Assembly: GCF_005406125.1 (NCBI RefSeq)
Contig: NZ_BIXZ01000008.1
Location: forward strand, 1-64,000
Origin: Haloarcula mannanilytica
Lineage (GTDB): Archaea; Halobacteriota; Halobacteria; Halobacteriales; Haloarculaceae
DNA: 64,000 nucleotides
Direction of reading: 5' to 3'
Shown: positions 31,479 through 60,215 of the stretch, piece by piece
Layout of the letters: each line of letters begins with the position of its first letter
Position numbering within the stretch: position 1 is the first letter of the stretch
The notes under the pieces: model-generated
What the model was told of the DNA's origin: nothing
Seen by the model: the letters and a program-made list of their open reading frames with translations, nothing else
Databases searched by the model: none
Program-made: the position numbers and the translations under genes

Positions 31479-31608
31479 AATGTGCTCGGTCAGGGATTTG
31501 AACCAGAACCAGACGTGCTCGCTCACTTCGTTCGCTATGCGCGACTGGTAGGGCTCAAATCCCTTCGTTAGACAGCCGTGGCTCGCGTATTTGCTCGCCG
31601 CAGGAATG

Positions 31609-44711: not shown

Positions 44712-46538
44712 ATGTACGAACACGATGTCATCGTGGTCGGCGCGGGTGGCGCTGGCCTCAGAGCTGCGATTGCAGCGGACGAAGAGGGTGCGGATGTCGC
44801 CCTCGTGACCAAGCTCCATCCGGTTCGGAGCCACACAGGTGCCGCGGAGGGGGGAATCAACGCCGCACTTCAGGAGGGAGACTCCTGGGACCTCCACGCC
44901 TACGACACGATGAAGGGGTCCGACTACCTCGGGGACGCCCCTGCTATCGACACCTTCGCCAAGGACGCCCCGGAAGAGGTCATCCAGCTCGAACACTGGG
45001 GAATGCCCTTCTCCCGCGAGGACGACGGCCGCGTCTCTCAGCGCCCGTTTGGCGGCCTCTCGTACCCGCGAACGACCTACGCCGGTGCCGAAACCGGCCA
45101 CCACCTGCTGCACACGATGTACGAGCAGGCGGTCAAGCGCGGTATCGAGGTGTACGACGAGTGGTACGTGACCCAGCTGGCGGTCACCGACCACGACGAC
45201 CCCGAGGACCGCGTCTGTCACGGCTGTGTCGCCTACGACATCAAGTCCGGCGAGATTCAGGGCTTCCGCGCCAACAACGGCGTGATTCTCGCGACCGGCG
45301 GCCTCGGCCAGGCCTTCGACCACACCACGAACGCTGTCGCCAACACCGGCGACGGCTGCGCGATGGCCTACCGCGCCGGCGTCCCGATGGAGGACATGGA
45401 GATGATCCAGTTCCACCCGACAACGCTCCCCTCGACGGGCGTCCTCATTTCCGAGGGGGTCCGGGGCGAGGGTGGCATCCTCTACAACGACGACGAAGAG
45501 CGGTTCATGTTCGAACACGGTTACGCCAACAACGAGGGGGAACTGGCTTCCCGTGACGTGGTCGCCCGTGCCGAACTAACTGAAGTCAACGAGGGCCGCG
45601 GCGTCGAGGACGAGTACGTCGACCTCGATATGCGCCACCTCGGCGAGGAGCGCATCCTCGACCGCCTTGAGAACATCCTCCACCTTGCGGAGGACTTCGA
45701 GGGCGTCGACGGTCTCGACGAGCCGATGCCGGTCAAGCCCGGCCAGCACTACGCCATGGGCGGCATCGAGTGCGACGAGAACGGTGAGACGTGTATCGAC
45801 GGCCTCTATGCCGCCGGCGAGACCGCGTGTGTCTCGCTGCACGGCGCGAACCGACTCGGCGGGAACGCCCTGCCGGAACTGCTCGTGTTCGGCGCTCGCG
45901 CCGGCCACCACGCCGCCGGCAAGGACATGAAGACCGCCGAAATCCAGACCGGCCCCTCCGCAAAGAGCGAGCCCGGCAACGTCGAACCGCCGGTCGAACC
46001 CGGCGCAATCGACGCCAGCAGCGACGACGTTGCCGCCGACGGGGCGGCAGTCGAACCGCAGTCGGTCCTCGAAAACACCGTCGAACAGGAGCGCCAGCGC
46101 ATCGAGACCCTCATCGAGTCCGACGGCATCAACCACGCCGAAGTCCGTGCGGACGTTCAGGAGACGATGACCGAGAACGTCAACGTGTTCCGGACGGAGG
46201 GGGGCCTAGAAAAGGCCCTTCGGGACCTCCGGACGGCCCGCAAGGAGTACGAGAACGTCGCCGTCGAAGACCCATCCCGGACTTACAACACGGACCTCAT
46301 TCACACCATCGAGACCCGCAACATCCTCGACGTGGCCGAGGCCATCACGCTCGGCGCGCTCGCCCGCGAGGAGTTCCGCGGCGCTCACTGGCGTGCCGAA
46401 CACCAGGAGCGCAAGGACGACGAGTGGATCAAGCACACGATGCTGGCCTGGAACGAGGGCCAGCCGGAGCTGTACTACAAACCGGTCATCCTCGAAGGCG
46501 ACGAGGAGACCTACGAGCCGAAAGTCCGGTCGTACTGA
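44712..46538 (+). CDS. sdhA: Succinate dehydrogenase flavoprotein subunit
   Basis: 608 residues. The FAD loop VIVVGAGGAGLRAAIAADEE is at about 7-26. His41 in VRSHTGAAEGGINAAL is the expected covalent FAD attachment. Further motifs are FSREDDGRVSQRPFGGLSYP (about 100), GDGCAMAYRAGVPMEDMEMI QFHPT region (about 215-240), and the catalytic Arg near LHGANRLGGNALPELLVFGA (about 377-396). An acidic low-complexity insertion (about 415-450) is a haloarchaeal addition. It oxidises succinate to fumarate. It has its own promoter and is separated from sdhCDB. Confidence 0.95.
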   Translation: MYEHDVIVVGAGGAGLRAAIAADEEGADVALVTKLHPVRSHTGAAEGGINAALQEGDSWDLHAYDTMKGSDYLGDAPAIDTFAKDAPEEVIQLEHWGMPFSREDDGRVSQRPFGGLSYPRTTYAGAETGHHLLHTMYEQAVKRGIEVYDEWYVTQLAVTDHDDPEDRVCHGCVAYDIKSGEIQGFRANNGVILATGGLGQAFDHTTNAVANTGDGCAMAYRAGVPMEDMEMIQFHPTTLPSTGVLISEGVRGEGGILYNDDEERFMFEHGYANNEGELASRDVVARAELTEVNEGRGVEDEYVDLDMRHLGEERILDRLENILHLAEDFEGVDGLDEPMPVKPGQHYAMGGIECDENGETCIDGLYAAGETACVSLHGANRLGGNALPELLVFGARAGHHAAGKDMKTAEIQTGPSAKSEPGNVEPPVEPGAIDASSDDVAADGAAVEPQSVLENTVEQERQRIETLIESDGINHAEVRADVQETMTENVNVFRTEGGLEKALRDLRTARKEYENVAVEDPSRTYNTDLIHTIETRNILDVAEAITLGALAREEFRGAHWRAEHQERKDDEWIKHTMLAWNEGQPELYYKPVILEGDEETYEPKVRSY

Positions 46539-46898: not shown

Positions 46899-47099
46899 GG
46901 GTGCAGGTGTTGCCGTGCAACGTCAAATAAGTTGTTGTGAATCCGATATGATTCGTCTCAGTCGGGACAGCAGTGACCACCTGACTGCAGGTGGTTCTCA
47001 GGTATCTGAATCACAAACGAAGCGTCGGTGAGCGCTGAGCCACGGAAACACCCGGAATCATCACTTACTTGGTTGTCAGGACCGTACAGAAGATAGCTT

Positions 47100-47202
47100 G
47101 GAAGGGTGGCTCAGTGGTAGAGCGCTACCGACTGGCATGCCAGATCTCGGTCGGTAGTCACCCCGCAAAGGGCTCCGCGTGGTTCGACTCCCGCCCCTTC
47201 CA
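47100..47202 (+). tRNA. Atypical tRNA-like gene, possibly tRNA-Ala (GGC) with extra sequence
   Basis: Acceptor halves GGAAGGG (47100-47106) and CCCTTCC (47195-47201) pair perfectly, discriminator A at 47202. The D arm GCTC-AGTGGTA-GAGC and a T-loop-like GGTTCGACTCC are normal. The middle is not: the total is 103 nt, about 30 more than a standard tRNA. The anticodon region CTACCGAC...GTCGGTAG is an 8-bp stem enclosing TGGCATGCCAGATCTCG. The only loop with a proper U33 and purine 37 is CTGGCAT (anticodon GGC, Ala). The T stem has an extra T. Introns at two places or a tRNA-derived RNA are both possible. The isotype is uncertain. Confidence 0.55.
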
Positions 47203-47516
47203 TTGGTTCGCCGGTAGCGACTGCAGTTCACGCACAAAATGTGGCGGTCGCTGTGGAGTTACAATAGAAACGAGCGTCGGAGGGGGGAACCGACGCTCAA
47301 CAGGAAGTGGAAAGGTACGGAATGTGGGGGGTGGGGGGTGGGGTGGTGCGGCACCAGTACGGTGCCTATCAGAATCAACAGCTACGGTTGTATAAAAAAC
47401 CAGCGGGGAGATTATCATAGTTGATATCACCGGAGCGCACGCAGACAGACCGCTGTAATGGGATCGAAACGGCCTCGAAAAACTGAATTGCAGGTCCTGT
47501 CAGTGGCCGCGAACAG
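47203..47516. other. Intergenic region with a G-rich tract
   Basis: No gene is seen in these 314 bases. Bases 47326-47346 consist of G runs of 6, 6, 4 and 2 separated by single T residues. This is a strong candidate for a G-quadruplex on the plus strand. It lies between the tRNA-like gene and the 3' end of a minus-strand gene, so it is not in a promoter of a known gene. Confidence 0.5.
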
Positions 47517-58538: not shown

Positions 58539-60215
58539 TCAGACAGTCACCGTCGGTTCCGGCTCCAGCCCGGTAACGACGAGTTTCGCACCGCCGGACT
58601 GGCTTGCAGCCATCTCAATCTCCCACCCGTGTGAATCAATGACGTGCCTGACGATGGCCAGACCGAGGCCGGTCCCCGATTCGGAACTGGTCACGCCGTG
58701 TTCGAACACGTCCTCGCGCTCCTCGGGCGGCACGCCGGGGCCGTCGTCGCTGACTATAAATCCGTCATCGGCGGCGTCGACCCGTACCGTCACCGCGGAG
58801 CCGCCGTGTTCCACGGCATTTCGGAACACGTTCTCGAACAGCTGAAGGAGCTGGTCGCGGTCGCCGACGATTTCGCGGTCGCCGTCGATCTGCAGCGTCG
58901 CCTCGGCGGTGTCAACGTGGGCCCAGGCCGCCTTTGCCAGGGCGGCGAGCCGTAACTCAACCCGGTCGGTCGACTTCTCATCGCGGGCGAAGGCAAGCAC
59001 CTCATCGATGAGACTACTCATCCGGTCGTGGGCCGCCTCGACGCGGTCGAACTCCTCCGGGTCGTTGCGCTCCCGGGCTAGCGCCAGCCGACCGGAGGCC
59101 ACGTTCAGCGGGTTCCGCAGGTCGTGTGAGAGAACGGCAGCGAACTGGTCGAGCTGCTGGTTCCGGCGTTCTAACTCGCGCTCGCGCTCTTTCTGTTCGG
59201 TGATTTCGTGGACGAGGAACACGCGCCCGACCAGCGCGTCGCGGGAGTCATACAGTGGCGAGAGATGCACGTCGAAAAACCGGTCGTTCTGTTCGACAAC
59301 GGCCTGGGTTTCTTCGGTTTCGTCGCCCAGCCCGCGGAACTGTTCGAGTAGCTCCGGCGACGTTTCGAGCACGTTCTCGACGGATTGTCCGACAATGGAC
59401 TCCGCTCCGAGTAGCCGACGGCCGGCGTCGTTGGCATCGATTATCGTATCCTTCGTGTCGACGACGAACACGGCGCTGTTGAGGGACTCGACCACCTCTC
59501 GGTAGGCGACCGGCGAAATGTCGAGCAGTCGGCCCCTGAAAAACGCCCACGAGAGGACCAGTCCGGTACCTGCAAGCAACAGCGGGGTGAGTTCGATTCG
59601 CGTGTCGCCGAAGACGCTGAGGACACTGCCGAACCACGGGAGGAAGATCGACAGCAGGATCGCGTACACCTGCTTTCTGTAGAGGCTGCCGGAGACGAGC
59701 GCATAATGGATGATGAGTGCACTCGAAACGGCGACGAGCGCGTAGGAGTACACGAGGTGCCCCCAGAACACTGACCCGAGAGTGAACTCCCAACCGTACA
59801 TGCCCGCCCCCGTCGGGCCGGACACGCTGTATATCAGCCCGTCAGGACCGACAACGAGTGCGGCAAAGAACACGATTGGTTCGACAGTCAAGAGTCCGTA
59901 GGTCCAGTTACTGAGGAAACGCTCCCGGTCAGTGTACGCCAGCGCGAACACGAACAGGCCGGCCATCGCTGGCATCACACCGACAAACACACCGTACGCA
60001 AAGAGAACGGCCAACTCGCTGCCGCGGGTCAGAATGCCAGCCGCTTCGCAGAAACACCAGATCGTGAGCCCGGCCAGCAGGACAGACAGGGCCGTCCCAC
60101 CAGCGGAATCCCGACGAGTCCAGGCGAACGCCGACAGCGCCCCGAGGATCACTGCTACCACAAGCAGCAGAAAGGCGTACCCGACAAACAGCGAAACCAT
60201 CACCCATATGTTCAT
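58539..60215 (-). CDS. Membrane sensor histidine kinase with N-terminal 7TM region and PAS
   Basis: 558 residues from ATG 60215 (MNIWVMVSLFVGYAFLLLVV). Seven hydrophobic helices span about 5-225, as in the histidine kinase N-terminal 7TM family. A PAS domain follows (VFVVDTKDTIIDANDAGRRL, about 245-264), then the H-box AAVLSHDLRNPLNVASGRLA (about 355) and an ATPase domain (NVFRNAVEHGGSAVTV, VSDDGPGVPPEE, SSESGTGLGLAIV). It should sense an extracellular or membrane signal. No regulator gene is adjacent; the HalX regulator at 62.2 kb is the nearest, on the other strand. Confidence 0.9.
   Translation of the reverse strand: MNIWVMVSLFVGYAFLLLVVAVILGALSAFAWTRRDSAGGTALSVLLAGLTIWCFCEAAGILTRGSELAVLFAYGVFVGVMPAMAGLFVFALAYTDRERFLSNWTYGLLTVEPIVFFAALVVGPDGLIYSVSGPTGAGMYGWEFTLGSVFWGHLVYSYALVAVSSALIIHYALVSGSLYRKQVYAILLSIFLPWFGSVLSVFGDTRIELTPLLLAGTGLVLSWAFFRGRLLDISPVAYREVVESLNSAVFVVDTKDTIIDANDAGRRLLGAESIVGQSVENVLETSPELLEQFRGLGDETEETQAVVEQNDRFFDVHLSPLYDSRDALVGRVFLVHEITEQKERERELERRNQQLDQFAAVLSHDLRNPLNVASGRLALARERNDPEEFDRVEAAHDRMSSLIDEVLAFARDEKSTDRVELRLAALAKAAWAHVDTAEATLQIDGDREIVGDRDQLLQLFENVFRNAVEHGGSAVTVRVDAADDGFIVSDDGPGVPPEEREDVFEHGVTSSESGTGLGLAIVRHVIDSHGWEIEMAASQSGGAKLVVTGLEPEPTVTV

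Follow-up and report, generated by a model that had tools for sequence, protein, structure and literature searches.

A gene at positions 47100-47202 of the forward strand of the window (the whole stretch of 64,000 nucleotides that was analysed, from a contig belonging to a 4.2-Mb haloarchaeal genome of the genus Haloarcula) very probably encodes a member of a real family of tRNA-like RNAs that do not decode. As judged from sequence searches, this family is class-wide and is confined to the Halobacteria. The Rfam tRNA model (RF00005) matched exactly 47100-47202 on the forward strand with 41.7 bits (E 2e-5, cutoff 29). Single-strand folding of these nucleotides gave -45.9 kcal/mol (z -2.1), and the folded shape comprised an acceptor stem of 7 bp, a D stem of 4 bp, a long helix at the anticodon position, a variable arm of 3 bp and a T stem with a bulged T. 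Two covariance models, R1, built on six congeners, and R2, built from 79 members, scored the window copy at 99.6 and 84.3 bits, respectively, whereas no ordinary tRNA of the genome exceeded 45.5 bits. No call was made at 47100-47202 by ARAGORN, the sole report of which in the window was a tRNA-Glu at 31608. The gene and its upstream surroundings comprise the following features.

44712-46538, forward strand: sdhA-like flavoprotein gene, the upstream syntenic neighbour, outside the RNA; the same neighbour is found in several genera.
47065-47072, forward strand: TATA-like element TTACTTGG at -35 to -28, at the A+T peak over 99 elements and kept in the genus.
47100-47202, forward strand: whole tRNA-like RNA, 103 nt including discriminator A, detected by Rfam RF00005, R1 and R2.
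47100-47106, forward strand: 5' strand of the acceptor stem, GGAAGGG, with its partner at 47195-47201; 6 of 7 pairs never vary and 99.8% of cells are paired in 79 relatives.
47109-47123, forward strand: D arm, GCTC-AGTGGTA-GAGC; 100% of cells are paired in 79 relatives; degenerate in genus g33 (L117, L250).
47125-47157, forward strand: hairpin replacing the anticodon arm, CTACCGACT / GGTCGGTAG with a 15-nt loop, GGCATGCCAGATCTC; 9 of 9 pairs with double-sided changes in 79 relatives.
47161-47172, forward strand: variable arm, CCC-CGCAAA-GGG; 3 of 3 pairs with double-sided changes, 89.9% paired.
47177-47194, forward strand: T arm, GCG-(T)-GG TTCGACT CC-CGC, with the bulged T at 47180; a one-nucleotide bulge in 99 of 99 elements.
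47195-47202, forward strand: 3' strand of the acceptor stem, CCCTTCC, plus discriminator A; the stem is invariant and the discriminator variable.

Thus, the tRNA-like acceptor stem, D arm and T loop noted in a preliminary description of this DNA are supported by both the Rfam match and the fold, and the bulged T reported there in the T stem corresponds to 47180. The stem placed at the anticodon region is also present, but its length had been given as 8 bp, whereas CTACCGAC/GTCGGTAG form 9 bp including a U-G pair. The approximately 15 extra bases before the T stem proved to be the variable region, comprising the small arm (CCC/GGG) and a linker, CTCC.

The preliminary description had also proposed a search for conservation, and this search revealed that the resemblance to a tRNA is more than chance. 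By DNA search (60 relatives), 29 of 31 same-genus genomes were seen to have one copy each, with identities of 80-94%, and two Haloarcula congeners, G014 and G021, were without the element. The genus alignment has approximately 60 invariant positions among 103; almost all of these fall in the acceptor stem, D arm, base of the variable arm and T arm, and the hairpin region varies in both sequence and length. The lengths of the congeners range from 96 to 104 nt with differences not divisible by three, indicating that there is no conserved reading frame. R1 also matched relatives far beyond the genus, and these distant relatives keep the ends GGAAGGGT-GCTCAG-GG-AGAGC and TTCRA-TCCCRCCCCTTCC around middles of widely differing length. 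Of 391 Halobacteria genomes, 197 gave a match to R2 at E 1e-7, and these represent 47 of 86 genera; the 197 include five genomes with E worse than 1e-9 that are diverged or unverified. The bulge and the loss of the anticodon recur across the class. A full-sensitivity search was applied to 20 genomes without a strong match, and of the seven matches read, six were ordinary tRNAs and the other was L250 of genus g33, a diverged member. No strong R1 match was observed in G151 and G240 (genus g45, which matches Haloferax contigs).

Outside the Halobacteria, the best R2 matches reached at most 59 bits, and five that were examined among the matches at E 1e-7 were ordinary tRNA-Ser and were rejected as family members. 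Moreover, an exact two-part pattern searched in 84,980 species returned 110 stretches that are haloarchaeal by their record titles, one of them in an unclassified 'Euryarchaeota' MAG, and the named carriers include nine Haloferax records, several Haloarcula and many Natrialbaceae. The copy number is mostly one, although some genomes hold two copies and Halegenticoccus soli holds three. The element is not essential, because it is missing from approximately half of the class, including G014 and G021. A plasmid copy (L284) was also observed at 58771-58861 of pHOS100 in Halorientalis sp. IM1011, adjoining an orc1/cdc6 gene; PLSDB, a resource without RNA gene entries, has no annotated feature at this place.

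The near-invariant body and the covarying hairpin, as read from the alignments, indicate that the structure is under selection. In the 79-member alignment, 95.8% of the cells are paired, compared with 46-59% when the partners are shifted by one to three columns, and the whole structure contains 179 double-change cells, compared with an average of 55 after shuffling (none of 500 shuffles reached 179). Both counts are flattered by an alignment that had been fitted to the model, and the exchanges are nonetheless visible in the raw sequences. The anticodon, bulge and discriminator were counted in 99 distinct named elements that were selected by the pattern. All 99 elements have one extra nucleotide in the T stem, on its 5' side; the sequence is GCG-T-GG, or GTGG-C-G in Natrialbaceae. 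This bulge was not selected for because that side of the stem lay outside the search pattern. All 99 likewise have C48, the partner of G15. The discriminator varies (G in 68, A in 30 and C in 1 of the 99 elements, and T in L250), which argues against a single synthetase with a strict N73 rule. A uniform serine identity, to which the class II-like variable arm and the majority of G73 might point, was rejected in view of the 30 elements with A73.

Two divergent forms have also been observed. L117 (G264) and L250 (G190), both of genus g33, have a decayed D arm together with an intact acceptor stem and bulged T arm, suggesting that recognition is probably centred on the acceptor/T arm. In L264 (G077), a related sequence combines a T stem paired along its full length with the acceptor GAAAGGG/CCCTTTC, and is named tRNA-Arg(tcg) by ARAGORN.

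This conservation also bears on two origins that had been suggested earlier, a pseudogene and a remnant of a virus. A decayed tRNA would not be expected to retain a body that is near-invariant in both halves across families together with compensatory changes in its hairpin, and synteny with sdhA extends over several families. In addition, the exact pattern was absent from the 2.9 million viral contigs of IMG/VR, and no phage match was obtained at E 0.01. In favor of an attachment-site relic of integrating viruses, the region downstream of the gene in L021, L024 and L028 contains short copies of its 3' end, and haloviruses use tRNA 3' ends, as exemplified by the 'tRNA-like' attP of HF2 (PMC8707807). 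However, the HF2 element, a truncated tRNA-Thr, is unrelated and is not recognised by R2, which yielded only an 8.3-bit fragment. Taken as the main explanation, a decayed pseudogene or attachment relic is refuted by the conservation in these sequences, and we consider it highly improbable. A secondary use of the element as an integration site is possible. The extra 3'-end copies (GTTCGAATCCCGCCCCTTCCA) are located approximately 100-260 nt downstream, inside palindromic units, and are possibly integration scars; similar T-arm copies were observed beside the tRNA-Val(tac) of the same genome as the window (L044).

The anticodon position distinguishes this RNA from a working tRNA. No canonical anticodon arm (5-bp stem, 7-nt loop and U33) is present at the normal place in 95 of the 99 elements, and the remaining four, which have an arm of the canonical type, carry four different triplets. 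The hairpin loop is 3-5 nt in 73 of 99 elements. The short relatives, of 78-90 nt, have a continuous stem of 5-9 bp with a loop of 3-5 nt at this position, and in the Natrialbaceae L112 and L113 the arm can be a stem of 8-9 bp with a loop of 3 nt. ARAGORN called 17 of the 99 elements with inconsistent anticodons, eight of these being undefined. Archaea splice tRNA introns, and the preliminary description had considered a tRNA with two introns. On a wider form of this reading, the tRNA would be functional, and its bulge-helix-bulge introns (one or two) would be overlooked by current finders. Consistent with such a reading, ARAGORN with introns allowed made some call in 62 of 99 elements. However, these calls comprise approximately 30 different anticodons, neither U33 nor the anticodon is conserved, and the 3-5-nt hairpin loop of the 78-90-nt relatives leaves no intron to splice. 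The intron-bearing reading has therefore been largely refuted, and we regard it as barely credible. Furthermore, the decoding set of this genome is otherwise essentially covered by 41 tRNA genes that were found and a tRNA-Phe that was identified by eye. Given a hairpin in place of the code-reading loop, the function of the RNA almost certainly lies outside the reading of the genetic code, as far as its predicted structure indicates.

The loop motif TGCCA, which some clades have in common (32 of 99 elements), recalls the Gly-GCC anticodon. Descent from a bacterial tRNA-Gly(GCC) was rejected, as the motif is paired and covarying in Natrialbaceae (e.g. GCC..GGC vs GTC..GAC) and similarity searches gave E 0.2 or worse. 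The remark that the D arm is of a bacterial style was a fair one, but no significant parent was found; the best matches, to phage tRNA-Gly and tRNA-Ser, belong to these same searches.

The surroundings of the gene suggest that the tRNA-like element may have its own promoter. Over the 99 elements, the A+T content rises to a peak of 0.75-0.89 at -35 to -33 and at -30 to -28 before the mature 5' end, which is where an archaeal TATA box would be expected if the leader of the transcript is short. In Haloarcula, Haloferax, Halogranum, Halobellus, Halobium, Salinigranum and others, sdhA is the gene immediately before the element, and this also holds for the degenerate members in G190 and G264. In Natrialbaceae the element occupies a different fixed place, and in Halorientalis and Halorussus it lies elsewhere; no remnant was found behind sdhA in genomes without the element. 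These data also bear on a processing signal of the t-element type, which would free a neighbouring RNA via RNase P or tRNase Z. Recognition by these two enzymes is through the acceptor/T arm, and t-elements are known in haloarchaea from the work summarised in PMC4326828. However, the TATA-like box would start the unit only approximately 30 nt upstream, the downstream sequence differs between families, and no 5S rRNA or other Rfam RNA is present downstream in the window. We thus consider a processing signal unlikely.

A candidate gene for a C-rich small RNA was also observed at 47320-47430 on the reverse strand. It contains a palindrome, TATCNNNNNTGATA, at 47413-47426 (0.13 expected in the window), and its order is a TATA-like TTTTTTATAC, a hairpin GGCACC-N5-GGTGCC and a tail, CACCACCCCACCCCCCACCCCCC. 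This candidate is conserved at Haloarcula and Halomicrobium loci, and is also located behind sdhA in G014 and G032, both of which lack the tRNA-like gene.

Among the four options offered in the preliminary description, a tRNA-derived regulatory RNA fits, in the sense of a non-decoding RNA. The explanation that we favor overall, with moderate confidence, is a class-wide non-decoding tRNA-like RNA acting via its acceptor/T arm. Regarding its specific role, we tentatively place a dedicated aminoacyl carrier first, and a decoy or regulator would be nearly as likely. Herein, we hypothesize the following course of events. First, the element would be transcribed as its own short unit. Second, as with a tRNA, RNase P and tRNase Z would trim the transcript, and CCA would be added to it. 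Third, the acceptor/T arm would be recognised off the ribosome by a tRNA-binding enzyme, and charging by an anticodon-independent synthetase might then convert the RNA into an aminoacyl carrier; anticodon-independent charging is known in other tRNAs (PMC9976931). The bulged T stem may weaken the binding of EF-1A and keep the RNA away from this factor. An anticodon-less archaeal tRNA family that is charged, donates its amino acid off the ribosome and is barred from translation by the T-stem bulge is conceivable on these grounds, and we put it forward as a doubtful but specific proposal.

As a decoy or regulator, the uncharged RNA would bind a tRNA-handling protein (a modification enzyme, a nuclease or toxin, or a synthetase) and tune its activity. 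The acceptor and T arms are the best-conserved parts and outlast the decay of the D arm, the discriminator is free, and the patchy, mostly single-copy and non-essential distribution suits an accessory regulator. However, no conserved partner gene was found for the tRNA-like RNA, and this role too we hold as possible rather than probable. Ro60/TROVE is the partner of the bacterial tRNA-like Y RNAs, and a Ro60 RNP was rejected, since Ro60/TROVE is absent from the genome of the window and present in 10 of 116 genomes of the class. In L271 (G303), a FemAB-like gene (PF13480, weak TIGR03019) adjoins a second tRNA-like copy. A FemAB-like transferase as a general partner was likewise rejected, as this genome and 10 other same-genus carriers gave no match at E 1e-10. 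That no transferase partner was found speaks, like the variable discriminator, against the carrier role.

Several tRNA-like RNAs outside decoding are known singly, including tmRNA, pseudo-tRNAs and t-elements. To our knowledge, no natural tRNA family combines a body that is near-invariant across an archaeal class with a freely drifting anticodon arm, and no earlier description of the element was found in the open literature searched. The family separates recognition of the acceptor/T arm from decoding, and its carriers include culturable haloarchaea (Haloferax, Haloarcula and Natrialbaceae), making it readily testable. Such genes can be overlooked or misnamed by tRNA finders, as the ARAGORN calls illustrate.

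Compared with canonical tRNA (RF00005), the element shares the acceptor, D and T arms and U8, A14, G15, G18, G19, C48, T54, T55, C56 and A58, but differs in lacking an anticodon arm and anticodon, in its bulged T stem and in its variable discriminator. tmRNA, which is bacterial, similarly has a tRNA-like body without an anticodon, but the element lacks the mRNA-like insert and tag, and neither ARAGORN nor Rfam called a tmRNA in the window. T-stem bulges at 51a are known in 8/4 tRNA-Sec and in selC* tRNA-Cys (PMC7609411); these tRNAs likewise have one unpaired T-stem nucleotide at the 51/52 step, but keep an anticodon and an 8/4 acceptor/T domain, whereas the element is 7/5 plus the bulge and has no anticodon. 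The tRNA-Other of Bacillus cereus is also a dispensable tRNA-like RNA outside translation, but it is bacterial, keeps a Trp anticodon and is part of a longer iron-regulated transcript (PMC3399842). For Haloferax volcanii, the genome paper gives 51 tRNAs and, beyond these, no more than RNase P and 7S RNA (PMC2841640). The t-element upstream of 5S rRNA in the same species (Holzle et al. 2008, 2012, as cited in PMC4326828) is the nearest published haloarchaeal idea. As outlined in that citing account, it is also a haloarchaeal tRNA-like structure and a probable substrate of RNase P and tRNase Z, but its place and context differ, since the element described herein stands alone with its own TATA-like box and no adjoining 5S rRNA, and its sequence is conserved family-wide.
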